A stretch of DNA of 64,000 nt from Nitzschia sp. DOCU1 (lineage: Eukaryota; Bacillariophyta; Bacillariophyceae; Bacillariales; Bacillariaceae). Below, piece by piece: positions 23,285 to 51,942 of this stretch. Below the pieces are notes generated by a model, which did not search any database, was not told the origin of the DNA, and saw only the letters and a program-made list of their open reading frames with translations. The DNA lies in assembly GCA_951394045.1 (NCBI GenBank), contig OX595989.1:2108001-2172000 (forward strand), in the 5' to 3' direction. Made by a program: the position numbers and the translations under genes. Each line of letters starts with the position of its first letter. The stretch's first letter is position 1.

Positions 23285-24089
<805 letters not shown>

Positions 24090-24751
24090 GCGCATGCTCC
24101 GCCCCAGAAGGGACCTTGGCAATCTTATCCTGGGGATGTTTGTTCTTAGCATTCTCCTCGATGCCAATGAACTGATTTTTGTGAAATGGTAGTATTACTC
24201 TATGATAGCATCCATTCAATAGTAGATTGAATTTCGATACAATATACCCTTCTTGCTTTTACTGCTACATGCACCCTGCGTTGCCGACTTTCGAAAGGAG
24301 CCTCGCGGTTCCACGTAGCCGCGCTGTGTAAAAATGTACGGCAGAATATTCCTGCAACAGCATCTTTCAAAACATGTAGTAGGTGAACAAAATCGACCCA
24401 ATGAATTCATTGAATGTTATATTTCCCACATCTCCTCCTTCAATGCATCTATCTTGTCTTACTACTTTGAGTTCTTTCTCGGGTAGTGTCGGCACTCTTT
24501 CATCCACTCGCCGAACACTGTTTCTCCCACTTGGTACGAAATGCGAGAAGGCTCGCCAACAACACAACTCAAAGACTATGCTTCCGAACACTACACCATA
24601 TCAGGGCTAGAACTCGTCATTGCAATCGGCTTTTATTTTAAAGGTAACCTGCTCTTCGAAACAAAAGGGAGACGTAATGAACCTATCGGTAGAACCTGGT
24701 GAGGTGGCACCTGGAGCGGGGAACATTGTCGCCACCAGGACACACTCGGAC
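24090..24751. other. convergent 3' intergenic region
   Basis: This stretch lies between the H4 stop and the SECIS-like hairpin of the thioredoxin-fold gene on the other strand. Small open frames here have no protein features. Confidence 0.4.
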
Positions 24752-24822
24752 CAGTCCACTCCTTCAACCACAAACGGCCATCTCTAGCTTTGCTTGCAGT
24801 GTCATACATAGAATCAAAACGT
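24752..24822 (-). promoter_or_regulatory. candidate SECIS element in the 3' UTR of the UGA-containing thioredoxin-fold gene
   Basis: Read on the minus strand, A-UGA-C at 24805..24801 is followed by nine bases (24800..24792) that pair without a gap with 24775..24767 (six Watson-Crick, three G-U pairs). The 5' side of the apical part starts with AAA (24791..24789). A three-pair mini-stem GCU/GGC follows (24788..24786 with 24779..24777), as in form 2 SECIS elements. The 3' half of the quartet is U-GA-A at 24766..24763, giving the A.G and G.A pairs. A weaker lower helix (UUCU with AGGA, plus G-U pairs) lies below. It sits 67-108 nt after the stop codon. This was found by eye; no folding program was run. 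Confidence 0.55.
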
Positions 24823-24871
24823 TCCTCTCGCCCCCTCGAATCCTGGTTACCTACCTTTTGCACCACTAATT

Positions 24872-25567
24872 CTAAAGCTCGGCCTCCACAGGACCACCAG
24901 CCTTGATGATCTTCTTCAGAATTCGCATCCGGCGCCAAGCCCATTCGAGCAAGTCTTCTTTCATGGGCTTCGAAGTCATTTCCTCCAGACGAGTGAGTTG
25001 ATTCTTAACTTCGTCCAGCGGCTTTTCCTTCCACTTCTCGGCATACTTAGCCTCCTTTTCATTGCAATGCTTTCCATCAAGGCCACAGAGGACAGTGTTA
25101 CCATAATCCTCAATATAGTCAATCATTCTCATGCGATCAAGCAGCTCTTCACACATGGGTTTGTCTGTGAGCTTCTTGTAGGCATCACCAAACTGACCCG
25201 TGTTCTTGTTGAAGTACCGAATCGTAGGCCACCCACCGGTACCTGGAGGTCCCAGTTCATCGGCTCGAAGCATGGGTGCTTCCTTTAGATTGATGTCGGC
25301 AAAAGCGACATCCGAGTTCCCTTCAAACATGCGCGTCACGTCGTTCCATGACGGCGCCTGCTTTCGTCATCAGCCTCATTGCTCCGAGGCTATCCAACGT
25401 ACAAAGACCGTCTTGTCTTTCTCGATCTGCTCGTCGATGTAATCGAGGAAGTTACCGAAATCAGTAAACTTCTCCACGCGATCAAAGTGACCTTCGGGGT
25501 AGAAGCCGCTGCCCATGGCCGCAGTGGCCATGAGGCCTAGGGTTAACACCCTACGTGCCATGGTCAT
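24872..25567 (-). CDS. secretory thioredoxin-fold (PDI-like) protein with three in-frame UGA codons at the active site; candidate selenoprotein
   Basis: One frame runs from ATG 25567 (or 25561, better context accATGg) to TAG at 24874..24872 and is broken only by UGA at 25378..25376, 25372..25370 and 25369..25367. Before the UGAs it reads KTVFVRWIASEQ, the usual thioredoxin strand. After them it reads RKQAPSWNDV, the usual helix after the active site. Aligned with the PDI stretch C-G-H-C-K-x-x-A-P, the UGAs take the places of C, H and C, so the site would be U-G-U-U. The cis-Pro region GGWPTIRYF is present, and a signal peptide (MARRVLTLGLMATAAMG) precedes it. The total is about 230 residues. 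If UGA were decoded as Sec this would be an ER or extracellular thiol/selenol oxidoreductase. The alternative of a 45-nt intron would delete the active site. Confidence 0.75.
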
Positions 25568-26213
25568 CAACTTTCAATTTTGAGATATTCGATTGCTCTC
25601 CAACAAGGGAAATGACCCTCTCTTTTCGTGGTGTGGTCTGCGCGCGTCGTTCCGATTACCAGTATGAGTGTACCTGGTACGATAGGTACATACGCATACC
25701 GATACCAGGAACTTCCAATTTCGCGCGTCGGCCGCGCGATAACAGAATTCCGTTACCGCACGACTTGACGTTTCTATTTGGCATGCCACGCGCGCCGAGG
25801 CCAAAGTTCTTGGCCTCAGGCCAAAGTTCTTGGCCTGCGCCAAAGTTCTTGGGATGAAAACGGGATTGATGCCAAGGCGGGATTCACATGGCCGTTGCAT
25901 CGGTTCGCCCAATGAACGAACCCGGCTCCACTTTTCACGATGCTGCACAAAACTCAAAAAATGGTGCGCACCCATTTGACCACATTCTTTGTGACTTTCA
26001 ACTTTCTCCTTCCTACCATGGAATCTTTCACTCAAGGGGGTCGCGGTCGTGGTCGTGTCGTCATTGTTATGGTGGCCATGGGGAACGTGGTGAAACCCCC
26101 AAAACTTGGCACAAACTCCACCTCGGTACGATACGAGTACGATAGCATGGAGACCCTTGCAACACTCCTTCGTTGCCTCATCCAGACACACAACACAATG
26201 AACAACCGTCAAC
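25568..26213. promoter_or_regulatory. divergent promoter region with repeat cluster
   Basis: 646 bp between the thioredoxin-fold gene (-) and the RED-like gene (+). It contains the repeat cluster at 25799-25853 and one arm of a short inverted repeat at 25708-25719. Confidence 0.4.
25799..25853. repeat. short near-palindromic repeats, GGCCAAAGTTCTTGGCC units
   Basis: Three head-to-tail copies of GGCCAAAGTTCTTGGCC (the last ending in GGG) are separated by TCA and TGC. Each unit is nearly its own reverse complement (CCAA...TTGG). The same units recur at 28683-28790. Confidence 0.85.
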
Positions 26214-46368: not shown

Positions 46369-47727
46369 ATGGCCGCCAACCTTCAGGTTCCTCCAGTGGT
46401 TCCACCAATGATACCACCGATAGTACCGCCTCCGGTCGTGCCACCAGCGGTCCCCCCAGCGGGGCCGCCAGCTCAGCAAAACATCGCTGCGCCAACGTTT
46501 GCACTCACGCCAGCTCTCGCACATGCGAATGTGCTTGACTACACGACATCCGAGGGAATGAAGATTTGGTCATCCGCAACTTCCTCAATGTACTCATCCG
46601 ACGAAGAAGGCTTCGACTGCTCTCCCGAACGAATGAAGGATTTCCTCAACAGGAAAGGCGGACGAGCAGCTATCAACGGATGGGACGACTCCTTCCTAGC
46701 AATCCCTGAAGATCCCAACAATCCAATCGGACCAGCATCCAATTTCCTCAATCACTACGGAGAGTACACCCTCGACTACCTGCATCAGTGTGCACAAGTC
46801 TACGTCAACGCTCAGAATCGAGCTGCTCAAGACTCCGTGCAAGCGTACAACTGCATCATGAACAGCTTAAATGCATCGGGTCGCAACAAGATAGCAGCAT
46901 ACAAGGACGAGTACACTGTCAGCAACAAGGGCGTGGGAATTCTCCTACTCAAAGTGGTCATACGGGAATCAAGCATCGACACGAACGCAACAACCGCACA
47001 CATCAGGACTCAACTCTCCTCTCTGGATACCTACCTACCTACCATAGGCAACGACATAGGCAAGCTGAATCTGTACGTAAAAGGACTTGTGGATGCTTTA
47101 GCCGCGCGAGGCGAGATCACAAACGACCTTTTGGTAAATTTGTTCAAAGGCTATCACGCCGCAAGCGACAAACGATTCATTGCCTACATCGAGAAGAAAG
47201 AAGAGGAATACGAGGATGGAACCACGGCGATCACTCCAAGCACTCTCATGGCATTGGCCAAAAACAAGTACGAGGTGCTAGTCGAAAAGAACCAGTGGAA
47301 CGCACCATCTTCGGAAGAAGAAAAGATTATGGTGCTCGAGGCCACTCTGAAACGACTCCAAGGTCAACAGAGAACTGCCGGCAAGTCTAGAACGACTGAA
47401 AGCAATGACAACAAAGCCGGCAAGGCCAAAGGCAACAACAAGAAGAAGAAGTCCGACATGCCTGCGTGGGTGTCCGTCAAACCCAAAGCTGGGGAACCCA
47501 CAAACAAGACAGTCGATGGCAAGCAATGGTGGTTCTGCGCCAATCATCAAAAGTGGTGCCGCCATTCGACCGACAAGTGCGAGAAGAAAGGATTGGGAAA
47601 GGGAAAGGATGGAGGCAACGCGACAACTTCGAAACCAGCAACGCCGACTACAACGACTAAACAAGAGTCGAAGTTTGCAAAAGCAATGACTGCTCTCGCC
47701 GATATCGCCGAAGAAACTGAGGAGTGA
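46369..47727 (+). CDS. retrotransposon gag protein
   Basis: 452 aa, starting at ATG 46369, 58 bp after the 5' LTR. The N-terminus is a Pro/Val repeat (VPPMIPPIVPPPVVPP), followed by a long helical part as in copia Gag. Near the C-terminus is a Cys/His-rich segment WWFCANHQKWCRHSTDKC, a possible zinc-binding RNA knuckle that departs from the usual CCHC spacing. A basic K-rich region precedes it. It ends in UGA, after which the same frame continues into pol. Confidence 0.9.
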   Translation: MAANLQVPPVVPPMIPPIVPPPVVPPAVPPAGPPAQQNIAAPTFALTPALAHANVLDYTTSEGMKIWSSATSSMYSSDEEGFDCSPERMKDFLNRKGGRAAINGWDDSFLAIPEDPNNPIGPASNFLNHYGEYTLDYLHQCAQVYVNAQNRAAQDSVQAYNCIMNSLNASGRNKIAAYKDEYTVSNKGVGILLLKVVIRESSIDTNATTAHIRTQLSSLDTYLPTIGNDIGKLNLYVKGLVDALAARGEITNDLLVNLFKGYHAASDKRFIAYIEKKEEEYEDGTTAITPSTLMALAKNKYEVLVEKNQWNAPSSEEEKIMVLEATLKRLQGQQRTAGKSRTTESNDNKAGKAKGNNKKKKSDMPAWVSVKPKAGEPTNKTVDGKQWWFCANHQKWCRHSTDKCEKKGLGKGKDGGNATTSKPATPTTTTKQESKFAKAMTALADIAEETEE

Positions 47728-50700
47728 TTCCTCAATCTGCCGACGAGGTTACAAGATACCCTGGCCGTATGGACATACATTGGCCTGGCGTACTTGATAA
47801 TCTACATATGGGTGACGGTCTATGCCGACAGCTGCTACTACTACTATCCTAAGAAGCAACGCTTTCGGGCTAAGTTAACTCGCTATTTAGCATATCTACG
47901 AGCCTGGAAAATCGCGATTTGGACTAGTTTTAGGCTGCGAATGAAGCACAGTCAACAAAACAAGGAAGTGAGGCGACGACGGGACATCGCCAGCAAGTAC
48001 CGACGCAACGACATGCCGCTACAATGTCACGTCTGCGGCAGCATCAACTTTGCAGCGCCGCGAACACTACAAGTCTGGCAAGTCCTATTGGCAATGGAGA
48101 CGATGACGAACAAAGGAGAACGGTTAGCAGTGATCGATACAGACTCGACAACCCTTGGGATCGACAATCGCGCGACGGCTTACCTATCGGGGTTCATCGA
48201 GGACTTCCCCGGTGAACTACAGCCAACAAATCGGATCGTGAACGGGTTCATGGGAGCCAAGGCCACGAATGTGTCAACAGGAACAGCAAAAGTAAGGTTA
48301 GAAGCCGACGGCGGCGACGTGCACGACTTCACTCTGCACGATTCCTACTACGTACCTGGATGCGGAATACGCCTCTTCAGCCCACAACATTGGGCCCAAC
48401 AAATGAAAAGACAACATCGCGGCCCAGCCCAATCGACAACCACACACGACCGCGTCATCCTCAGCTCCAAAGACTTCACCAAAACGATCCCACTCGATCC
48501 GGTCACCAACGTGGCGACGTGTCGGACCGCCCCCGGATACTCCAAGTTTGCGGCGTTTTGTGCGGAGGCAGGATTCGACGATGACGGCGACGACGTCCTG
48601 GCATTCGATGCACAGGTTATCTCCGACGATGAAGATGACGATCCTGCGGATTTCTCGAATATAGGCAACGATAATGTTAGCGACGACGTTAACAACAACA
48701 TACGCGACGACACAGAAAACTTACTCGGACCAACGCCTGCTCCACCTGCCAATCCTGCGAGGATAGTGGATGAAACAGAGGTTGAGAGAGAGGAAAGGAA
48801 GCTCGAGACCGAATTACTGACTTACCATCTGCGCTTCGCCCATGTATCCTTTCGGAAACTACAGATCATGGCGCGATACTCCATCATCCCAAGGCGACTG
48901 GCCAAATGTCGCGTTCCCGTATGTGCAGCCTGCATGTTCGGTAAAGCAACAAAGCGTCAGTGGAGGCAGAAGGCACCAATCAACAAGGACGAAGCTTACT
49001 TACCAACAAAACCGGGTGAAGTGGTCTCGGTCGACCAAATGAAGTCCCCAACACCGGGGTTCATCGCGCAGATGACAGGTATCTTGACGACGAAGCGATA
49101 CGTGTATGCAACTGTCTACGTGGACAGCTACTCATCGTTCGGCTACGTCTACCTGCAGAAGACCGCTAGTGCTGACGAGACGATCGAGGGCAAGCATGCA
49201 TTCGAACGTCTGTGCCAGCAAAACGGTTTCAGAGTCCAACATTATCATGCCGACAATGGAATTTTCAAGGCCAACAAATGGGTGCTTGACTGCCACAAAT
49301 GCGAGCAAGGTCTCTCATTCGCGGGAGTCAACGCGCATCACCAGAACGGACAGGCGGAAGCTCGAATCAGACGACTACAAGAGCTGACGCGCACACAACT
49401 GACCTACGCAAAACGACAATGGCCACAGGAGATCTCGGCGAACCTCTGGCCATACGCCCTCCGAATTGCGAACGATGCAAACAACGCGACACCCAATCTG
49501 GCCGACAAACCTGACTACCGCTCCCCAGCGGAGCTCTTCTACAGTACGAAGGTCTCCACCAACGCCAAGCGCTGGCAACACTTCGGTTGTCCAGTGTACG
49601 TGTTGGACAGGAACTTGCAACAGAACAAACCGCTCCACAAGTGGGTCAGTAGAGCGAGGGTTGGGGTGTACCTGGGACGATCACCACACCACTCTCGTTC
49701 TATTGCGCTGGTGCTGGACATCAAGACGGGACTTGTGTCTCCACAGTTCCACATCAAGATGGACACAATGTTTGACACCATAGCACAACTCTACCAGTCG
49801 GTGGAGAGTGCTAGCACACAACAATCGCTATGGCAAATCAAGGCGGGGTTTGTTCAGCAGTCACAAGCGAATGTGACAGCACCCAAGCAGGGCAATGCGA
49901 CAACCACAGCTTCGAAAAGAAAACAGGTCACTACACAAAACTCTCAGACAAGAGAGGGCACCCAAGTTCCAGAGGGAGCCTACGTGGCACCACCTGAACC
50001 ACGCACAGTCGACATGACCCCGAAGACAGACAGGGACAGCGGTTCTCCCACCGTTACAGAAGGGAACACACCCGGGAATGGCAAACAACAGCCATCTACA
50101 CAACAACACCAGTCTCCACGAATGCAATCAGAATCTGGTACGGCCACCAGGCGATCGCAGAGACGCGTGCAACCTGCGCAACGACTGATAGAAGCAATGA
50201 CAGCGGAACTCACTACGCAAAGTGATGTTCCTGGCGAAGTGTTCTCCTTCCAGGCGATGTTCCCAAGCGACGGCAGGTCCATCAACGAGGACCTGAACCC
50301 ACTCTATGCCTACAAAGCCAATGCAGACCCCGACACTCTGTATCTTCACGAGGCTCAGAGGGAGAGCGACTGGGAACAGTTCGGCGAAGCAATGGAACTG
50401 GAGATCAAGCAACAGGTCGACATGGGAGTCTACACCATCATGTTACTCACCGACATACCAACGGGGACTACCGTGCTACCTGCAGTGTGGCAACTGCGCC
50501 GCAAGCGCGACATAAGGACGGGCGCAATCAAGAAATACAAGGCACGATGCAATATCGACGGTTCTCGAATGCGACACGGCGAGCACTACGATCAGACGTA
50601 TGCTCCGGTTGCCGGATGGCCCTCGATAAGGCTACTGCTGGCGCTGGTTCTACTCTTCAATTGGCGAACGGTCCAACTCGACTACGTGCTCGCGTACCCA

Positions 50701-51942
50701 CACGCGCCAGCAGACAGGGACCTCTACATGAAGCTACCAAAGGGATTCACCCTCGACGGCGTTGACGACCCAAGCAAGTATTGTCTACGAGTCAACCGCA
50801 ACCTCTATGGGGGAAAAAGCGCCTCTCGTATATGGTATCAATATCTGAGGAAACGGCTCATCGACAAGTGCCATTTCGTGGTGTCCAAGCACGACGAGTG
50901 TGTATTCTACAAGGGCAACATGATCTACGTCCTCTACACCGACGACTCAATCTTAGCCGGTCCTGACCAGGCAGAGATCGAGCGAACGATACAGGAAATG
51001 AGAGACGCAAACCTCAACATTACCATTGAGGGAGATCTCACGGACTTTCTCGGAGTCAACATCGATCGGAAAGAAGACGGAACGATACACCTGACGCAAC
51101 CCAAGCTAATCGAACAGGTGATATCGGACCTACGCATGCAGTATGACAATGTACGAACCAAGGACATCCCCATGGCGTCCAGCAGGCTACTGTCACGTCA
51201 CCTGAGCTCCACACCACACGACGACTCGTTCCACTACAGGAGTGTCATCGGCAAGCTCAACTACGTCGAGCGCGGATCAAGGCCAGACATCGCATACGCA
51301 GTGCACCAGTGTGCACGGTTCTCCATCGACCCAAAGAAAGAACACGGCGATGCAATACGCTGGATCACACGTTACCTGCTCGGCACACGAGACAAAGGAA
51401 TAATCTTCAAGGCAGATCCTTCGAAGGGATTGGAGGTATTCGTCGACGCCGACTTCGCGGGGAACTGGGACAAGGAACTGGCAGGATTCGACAAGGACAC
51501 TGCTCGCTCCAGACACGGCTACATCATCTGCTACGCAGGAGTGCCAGTCACATGGAAATCACAGCTACAGCAAGAGATCGCTCTGTCTAGCTGCGAATCG
51601 GAGATCACAGGACTCTCGTACGCTTTGCGAGAGGCTATACCGATCATTGAGCTTCTGAGGGAGATGCAAGGACTCGGATTCAATGTGCACTTCGACAAGG
51701 CACACATCACTTGCAACGTCTACGAAGACAACATGGGCGCCATTGAGATCGCCCGTACTCCCAAAGCAAGACCAAGAACAAAGCATATCAACAATCGTCT
51801 ATTTCACTTCTACGACTATGTGGAGAGAGGCGACATCGAGATACATCATATCCGATCCGAAGATCAACCTGCCGATATCCTGACCAAAGCATTAAGCGAG
51901 GATCTCTTCGTCAAACACAGACAGGTCATCATGGGATGGTAA
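47728..51942 (+). CDS. retrotransposon pol polyprotein (protease, integrase, reverse transcriptase, RNase H)
   Basis: An open frame of about 1400 codons in phase with gag directly after its UGA; the first ATG is at 47941. A hydrophobic segment (YIGLAYLIIYIWVTV) lies at the very start, which is unusual for Pol. The protease region has GIDNRATAY in place of the usual D-S/T-G. Integrase has an HHCC zinc motif (HLRFAH ... CAACMFGK) and DDE residues (VSVDQMKS, HADNGIF, QNGQAEARI). Reverse transcriptase carries YVLYTDDSILAGP, with YTDD at the active site, and RNase H carries VFVDADFAG and SSCESEITG. No internal stop occurs. Pol may be made by UGA read-through or from its own ATG. Confidence 0.92.
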   Translation, partial: FLNLPTRLQDTLAVWTYIGLAYLIIYIWVTVYADSCYYYYPKKQRFRAKLTRYLAYLRAWKIAIWTSFRLRMKHSQQNKEVRRRRDIASKYRRNDMPLQCHVCGSINFAAPRTLQVWQVLLAMETMTNKGERLAVIDTDSTTLGIDNRATAYLSGFIEDFPGELQPTNRIVNGFMGAKATNVSTGTAKVRLEADGGDVHDFTLHDSYYVPGCGIRLFSPQHWAQQMKRQHRGPAQSTTTHDRVILSSKDFTKTIPLDPVTNVATCRTAPGYSKFAAFCAEAGFDDDGDDVLAFDAQVISDDEDDDPADFSNIGNDNVSDDVNNNIRDDTENLLGPTPAPPANPARIVDETEVEREERKLETELLTYHLRFAHVSFRKLQIMARYSIIPRRLAKCRVPVCAACMFGKATKRQWRQKAPINKDEAYLPTKPGEVVSVDQMKSPTPGFIAQMTGILTTKRYVYATVYVDSYSSFGYVYLQKTASADETIEGKHAFERLCQQNGFRVQHYHADNGIFKANKWVLDCHKCEQGLSFAGVNAHHQNGQAEARIRRLQELTRTQLTYAKRQWPQEISANLWPYALRIANDANNATPNLADKPDYRSPAELFYSTKVSTNAKRWQHFGCPVYVLDRNLQQNKPLHKWVSRARVGVYLGRSPHHSRSIALVLDIKTGLVSPQFHIKMDTMFDTIAQLYQSVESASTQQSLWQIKAGFVQQSQANVTAPKQGNATTTASKRKQVTTQNSQTREGTQVPEGAYVAPPEPRTVDMTPKTDRDSGSPTVTEGNTPGNGKQQPSTQQHQSPRMQSESGTATRRSQRRVQPAQRLIEAMTAELTTQSDVPGEVFSFQAMFPSDGRSINEDLNPLYAYKANADPDTLYLHEAQRESDWEQFGEAMELEIKQQVDMGVYTIMLLTDIPTGTTVLPAVWQLRRKRDIRTGAIKKYKARCNIDGSRMRHGEHYDQTYAPVAGWPSIRLLLALVLLFNWRTVQLDYVLAYPHAPADRDLYMKLPKGFTLDGVDDPSKYCLRVNRNLYGGKSASRIWYQYLRKRLIDKCHFVVSKHDECVFYKGNMIYVLYTDDSILAGPDQAEIERTIQEMRDANLNITIEGDLTDFLGVNIDRKEDGTIHLTQPKLIEQVISDLRMQYDNVRTKDIPMASSRLLSRHLSSTPHDDSFHYRSVIGKLNYVERGSRPDIAYAVHQCARFSIDPKKEHGDAIRWITRYLLGTRDKGIIFKADPSKGLEVFVDADFAGNWDKELAGFDKDTARSRHGYIICYAGVPVTWKSQLQQEIALSSCESEITGLSYALREAIPIIELLREMQGLGFNVHFDKAHITCNVYEDNMGAIEIARTPKARPRTKHINNRLFHFYDYVERGDIEIHHIRSEDQPADILTKALSEDLFVKHRQVIMGW

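Follow-up and report, generated by a model that had tools for sequence, protein, structure and literature searches.

A PDI_e-type gene of Nitzschia sp. DOCU1 with three UGA codons at its active site, very probably read as selenocysteine

Introduction

What does a diatom gene encode when its frame is interrupted by three UGA codons, all of them in an active-site motif? The question is raised by a locus on the minus strand of a 64-kb stretch of Nitzschia sp. DOCU1 DNA (contig OX595989.1, positions 2,108,001 to 2,172,000; hereafter the window, with positions counted from its first letter). The analysis argues with high confidence that the locus is the gene of PDI_e, an algal selenoprotein, whose predicted product is a secreted disulfide isomerase retained in the endoplasmic reticulum (ER), with a single thioredoxin domain and, at the C-terminus, a helical domain possibly resembling the one in ERp29. 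The protein would very probably contain three selenocysteine (Sec, U) residues. The sequence holds the frame itself, the three active-site UGAs, their conservation in a family, genes for tRNA-Sec and SepSecS in the same genome, and a KDEL-like end.

A preliminary description of this DNA had implied that a triple-Sec protein of this kind would be new, but the family had already been described, under the name PDI_e, by Jiang et al. (2020; PMC7539508). In their account, PDI_e has a GUGUU motif containing the first reported Sec-Sec pair, and 12 genes were described in 10 algae, with expressed sequence tag support and predicted selenocysteine insertion sequence (SECIS) elements. The family is distributed over haptophytes and the SAR group; Fistulifera solaris has lost the motif, and the homologues reported from Plantae are all Sec-less (PMC7539508).

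The reading frame and its UGA codons

With TGA read as U, the minus strand from 25567 to 24872 yields a protein that begins MTMARR and ends VEAEL, followed by TAG. The frame is broken by three UGAs alone, as the preliminary description had stated. It has 231 codons, with the UGAs at codons 64, 66 and 67, and no other stop and no frameshift; the peptides VFVRWIAS, RKQAPSWN and GGWPT are all present as given there. The UGAs lie in the stretch E-Q-U-G-U-U-R-K-Q-A-P, at a thioredoxin/PDI active site, and the features of this region are as follows.

24872..25567, minus strand: PDI_e coding sequence, ATG to TAG, 231 residues, Sec at 64, 66 and 67 (frame and homologues)
25376..25378, minus strand: UGA codon 64, Sec, first CxxC-type position (aligned with C of the CGGC and CSRC homologues)
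25370..25372, minus strand: UGA codon 66, Sec, x2 position, His in C-G-H-C (frame and homologue alignment)
25367..25369, minus strand: UGA codon 67, Sec, second CxxC-type position (frame and homologue alignment)
25358..25402, minus strand: 45-nt gt..ag stretch around the UGAs, codons 56-70 (intron reading rejected; conserved coding sequence)

The register of the three UGAs with C, H and C of C-G-H-C, proposed earlier, is confirmed by true Cys homologues that carry CGGC (P0144, P0145) or CSRC (P0198). In their alignment, U64 and U67 fall on the two Cys of CxxC and U66 falls at x2. When the 52-Mb genome was searched with the PDI_e query, five places matched at E<=1, namely the query locus and four weaker matches (E 1.4e-10 to 0.0155) that correspond to PDI-like or C-terminal-domain exons.

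Homologues and gene calling

Homologous proteins were collected with the query (132 found, best 120 listed), with a 33-member alignment (843 found, best 120 listed) and with an alignment of seven Sec-less members (312 found, best 120 listed). Homologue counts rest on 234 distinct listed proteins besides the query, among them P0002, the window's own truncated product. Named homologues come from diatoms (Nitzschia, Cylindrotheca, Seminavis and a Bacillariaceae metagenome-assembled genome) and from dinoflagellates.

The motif is crossed, with family-like upstream sequence, by 61 of the 234 proteins, 53 with Trp at all three sites and eight with other motifs; in the profile alignment, 52 have WGWW and one WSWW (P0157). 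Another 164 begin past the motif according to BLAST, nearly all of them 1 to 32 residues on; the first residue is M in 111, V in 51 and L in 2. Trp at the UGA sites would result from gene calling with table 4, and the cut at the same place from table 11. The recurrence of the three-Trp motif at one site, together with so many starts just after it, bears out the argument that three UGAs so placed are beyond chance; it also speaks against an assembly error, which unrelated contigs would not share. Late starts were counted by BLAST because the sorting of gapped rows by hmmalign into deleted and later-starting ones is a placement artefact. The 70 proteins without a late start comprise the 52 with WGWW and 18 others: eight with a different motif, five models without the segment, two with RGWW, one with WSWW and two that start beside the motif (P0152, P0153). 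One pair, P0030 and P0173 (96% identical over 155 aa), shows both forms, WGWW and late-starting; no other of the 164 late-starting proteins has a WGWW partner at >=90% identity, a scarcity probably due to the clustering of the database at 90%.

It is very unlikely that the locus is a pseudogene, that its first UGA is an ordinary stop releasing a 63-residue peptide, or that a protein of ~155 residues is made from a downstream start. Standard calling does return only a 155-aa open reading frame (ORF) here, with a GTG start after the UGAs, and 164 of the 234 listed proteins are annotated in that way, as had been predicted of normal gene callers. Yet the upstream part, with its hydrophobic N-terminus, I-Y-P and VRWIAS, is conserved in relatives, and the UGAs are confined to the active site of 231 otherwise uninterrupted codons.

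In P0138 and P0142, R-G-W-W is preceded by unrelated residues, which suggests that an intron ends within the first UGA codon; a true R-G-U-U may be the alternative. The residue before the first Sec is mostly G among relatives, though some have Q (P0048), N, A, F or K, and this variable position is not treated as defining the family.

The 45-nt segment as a possible intron

Splicing could in principle remove all three UGAs and leave a protein without the active-site segment. The 45-nt stretch has a gtacgt start, a cag end, an internal branch-like CTGAT and phase 0, and five listed gene models lack the segment (Nitzschia Nitz4 P0010, Seminavis P0158, Symbiodinium KB8 P0148, Effrenium P0183 and Cylindrotheca P0056). 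On the other hand, R57, I59, A60, S61, G65 and Q70 are invariant in the 33-row alignment, the Cys homologues retain the segment, and in the AlphaFold2 model a protein without codons 56-70 would lose the active site together with the greater part of a core strand and the beginning of a helix. The segment-less models would be expected artefacts of predictors that avoid stops. Splicing had been named in advance as a refutation and is not borne out, as 61 listed homologues carry the segment in frame; the intron reading has very little probability. Five listed MMETSP transcript ORFs (P0006, P0046, P0174, P0191, P0226) start after the motif, as expected of unspliced transcripts with a stop there. 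One of the segment-less PDI_e homologues, P0158 of Seminavis robusta, carries the name glutathione peroxidase.

Selenocysteine decoding in the genome

A genome scan for tRNA-Sec gave 13 matches, five of them over the cut-off, and ARAGORN assigned the anticodon tca to these genes. A SepSecS gene is also present.

Contig C5, 639526-640069: four tRNA-Sec genes in tandem (L007-L011 set)
Contig C6, 887673-887758: fifth tRNA-Sec gene (L007-L011 set)

Multiple copies recall those of another diatom, Fragilariopsis cylindrus, for which a published count gives four tRNA-Sec genes in Table 3 and eleven non-identical predictions (PMC5330540).

In-frame TGA codons were found in three of four genome matches to GPx, one of four to Rdx, one of two to Sep15/SelM, four of 15 to MsrA and two of 57 to thioredoxin. 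The loci read individually were three GPx, one Rdx, one Sep15/SelM, two MsrA and one thioredoxin (L041), and in all eight the domain TGA occupies what we take to be the usual Sec site. Two loci are single-Sec PDIs.

L041, about 1444-2100: single-Sec PDI, A-P-W-U-G-H-C, ends KDEL
L003, about 1278-1953: single-Sec PDI, U-G-H-C, ends AEL, with an apparent intron end just before the UGA

These data bear on the reading in which the genome decodes UGA as tryptophan (code 4). Trp does appear at these sites in public proteins, and UGA is rare as a stop, ending three of the 24 ORFs of >=250 aa in the window. However, readthrough of two of these three would meet a further stop within 7 and 40 codons and the third belongs to a retroelement, the tRNA-Sec genes have tca anticodons, and seven enzyme genes that were read (besides L003) have an in-frame domain TGA at the usual Sec site. 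Decoding as Trp is, accordingly, extremely improbable.

The retroelement lies at 46369-51942 on the plus strand and consists of two ORFs of 452 and 1382 aa in the same frame. A TGA ends the first, and the second matches RVT_2 and, under the cut-off, gag_pre-integrs. It is a copia-like element in which a UGA seemingly splits gag from pol and may be subject to stop-codon readthrough.

The SECIS candidate and the weight of the evidence

A strict scan of the 872 nt after the stop gave one match, at 24805-24763, 66 nt past the stop codon.

24763..24805, minus strand: form II SECIS candidate with ATGA core, 9-bp helix, unpaired AAA, apical hairpin and TGAA (strict scan)

The elements follow in the order ATGA, C, an uninterrupted 9-bp helix, AAA, a 4-bp hairpin and TGAA, with an energy of -11.9, and the helix also forms in a 126-nt context. 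This energy was reached by five strict matches in both strands of the window, the candidate included, and in 11 of 600 dinucleotide shuffles; together with an uninterrupted 9-bp helix it was reached in none of the 600. The match is a good candidate for the SECIS, not proof of it.

At other Sec-gene loci, the strict scan gave weak matches in L023 and L025 and one inside the coding part of L003, with no match in L019, L020, L033 and L036 and none downstream of L003, L004 and L005. A relaxed scan gave strong-looking matches in L018 and L023, weaker ones in L003, L025 and L036, a middling one in L033 (-11.2, versus -12.5 for the window's candidate) and no match in L019, L020 or L041. Its background was high: over the two strands of the window, 46 matches had an energy of -11 or better. 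Taken together, these results indicate that the strict scan is insensitive and the relaxed one unspecific. An Rfam scan of 23400-26200 at E<=10 returned only three chance-level snoRNA/sRNA matches.

Several points weigh against Sec decoding at this locus. A strict match at any energy arose in 112 of the 600 shuffles, the 126-nt region folds with an ordinary energy (z 0.19), and among eight other Sec-gene loci the strict scan gave a convincing match in one (L018). Rfam SECIS_1 had no match in 23400-26200 and none in the whole genome. That Trp at the three sites of homologues stands for UGA is deduced from protein sequences, homologue DNA having been looked for in viral and genome contigs and none found, and introns may lie behind some of the late-starting homologues. 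The best-supported reading is nevertheless the one first proposed, a selenoprotein in which Sec occupies the two CxxC positions and also x2.

Sec-less relatives

Eight of the 61 listed proteins that cross the motif are Sec-less: besides the three with a Cys pair, two have one Cys (HAEC, HADC) and three none (SAQS, HPQA, STPA). Among the listed homologues, Sec-type Trp and Cys never occur together within the three sites of one row. A tree was built from 52 rows (43 UGUU, 8 other and 1 outgroup), leaving aside late-starting proteins, those of <185 aa (several WGWW rows and the WSWW protein P0157) and P0148, P0183, P0158, P0010, P0045, P0153 and P0025. The label UGUU or other requires four changes on this tree, all four forced by starred branches, and none of 500 shuffles was as low. 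Homologues without Cys or Sec had been named as a possible refutation; three such proteins do exist, but the Sec-less homologues sit in four separate places inside the UGUU tree, and the refutation does not follow. The outgroup branch is very long (4.44), which makes the root insecure and leaves gain versus loss unproven; repeated loss of the Sec motif reads best from these sequences.

It may tentatively be proposed, with less than even confidence, that U-G-U-U acts as an all-or-none catalytic unit already present in the ancestor of the sampled family. The triad would stay intact across wide divergence and be lost only as a whole, with a plain C-x-x-C taking its place in certain lineages and a one-Cys or Cys-free sequence in others. 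On this view the middle Sec would be selenium-specific, without a Cys equivalent, for instance as half of a vicinal Sec66-Sec67 diselenide that works as a switch in an ER protein of ERp29-like build.

Domain organization and predicted structure

The predicted protein divides into four parts.

25511..25567, minus strand: likely signal peptide, a hydrophobic N-terminus, end approximate (sequence)
25133..25489, minus strand: domain with the thioredoxin fold, roughly residues 27-145; GGWPT and P114 at the cis-Pro position (AlphaFold2, VIA-align, Pfam PF00085)
24896..25066, minus strand: C-terminal helical domain, roughly residues 168-224, perhaps of ERp29/Windbeutel type (AlphaFold2; matches to 2qc7 and 2c0e/2c1y; PF07749)
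24875..24886, minus strand: C-terminal EAEL, a KDEL-like signal with a presumed role in ER retention (sequence, family ends)

With C written for U, the query scores 24.9 bits against Pfam Thioredoxin PF00085 (cut-off 23.5) and 30.6 bits against TIGR01126 pdi_dom (E 3.1e-7), under the curated cut-off of 107.2; it is a relative, not an ordinary PDI. P114 is invariant in the 33-row family alignment. EL ends 210 of 235 listed proteins, the query included, and KDEL is the commonest last four (28).

PF07749, the ERp29 C-terminal domain, was matched at E<=1 by seven of 33 relatives, the query not among them (best 1.4e-4), and, when ten proteins were scanned, by three of them, all under the 24.3-bit cut-off. 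Another of the ten, P0124, matches Apo-CIII at 6.2e-5 instead, which indicates that helix-rich sequence by itself can score. VIA-align superposed 182 residues of Wind on the PDI_e model at 6.9 A, and the model resembles ERp29 and Windbeutel (2qc7, 2c0e, 2c1y) across both domains. The Foldseek and VIA match lists consist mostly of thioredoxin domains and cover the helical domain thinly. An ERp29/Windbeutel-like build with an ER-retention-like tail is likely. Animal ERp29, unlike PDI_e, is not known to carry a CxxC-type redox site. An apparent second copy of the C-terminal helical domain is seen in P0008 and P0025, which are Sec-less or truncated relatives.

A plus-strand gene, presumably histone H4-like, ends at about 24089 and converges on the PDI_e 3' end.

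Comparison with known systems

Compared by its published description, PDI_e shares with the protein of this locus three neighbouring Sec codons, x-U-G-U-U, and a PDI/thioredoxin-like fold; Gln63 precedes the first Sec here, in contrast to the Gly of GUGUU, and ERp29 is not mentioned in the main text (PMC7539508). No other paper on the family appeared among those listed in literature searches that did not extend to most subscription journals. The QUGUU variant, a wider picture of the family, the likely ERp29/Windbeutel-like build, the ER-retention-like tail and Sec-less homologues are the additions to known PDI_e. L041 and L003 of the same genome also have a PDI-type domain with Sec at the first position and a KDEL or AEL end, but carry one Sec in U-G-H-C where PDI_e has three. 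The best solved-structure matches, by sequence and fold, are thioredoxin domains of ERp46 (TXNDC5), PDI and PDIA6/P5, which differ in having C-G-H-C sites and several domains.

Proposed mechanism and implications

UGAs 64, 66 and 67 would be decoded as Sec through the candidate SECIS in the 3' untranslated region. Sec64 would attack the substrate and Sec67 resolve the intermediate, giving a 64-67 diselenide, while Sec66, beside Sec67, might serve as an alternative partner or as a guard against over-oxidation. The helical domain and the -xxEL tail would bring the protein onto ER clients. We know of no chemistry described for a CxxC-type site made up wholly of selenium and accompanied by a third Sec.

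For Sec insertion, four codons that include three UGAs, with one adjacent pair, are a hard test. Among the listed proteins PDI_e is nearly always mis-called, with 164 of 234 late-starting, 53 carrying three Trp and five segment-less. The Sec-less relatives provide natural controls for the contribution of selenium, and if the triad is indeed all-or-none, the middle Sec would have a selenium-specific function with no Cys equivalent.
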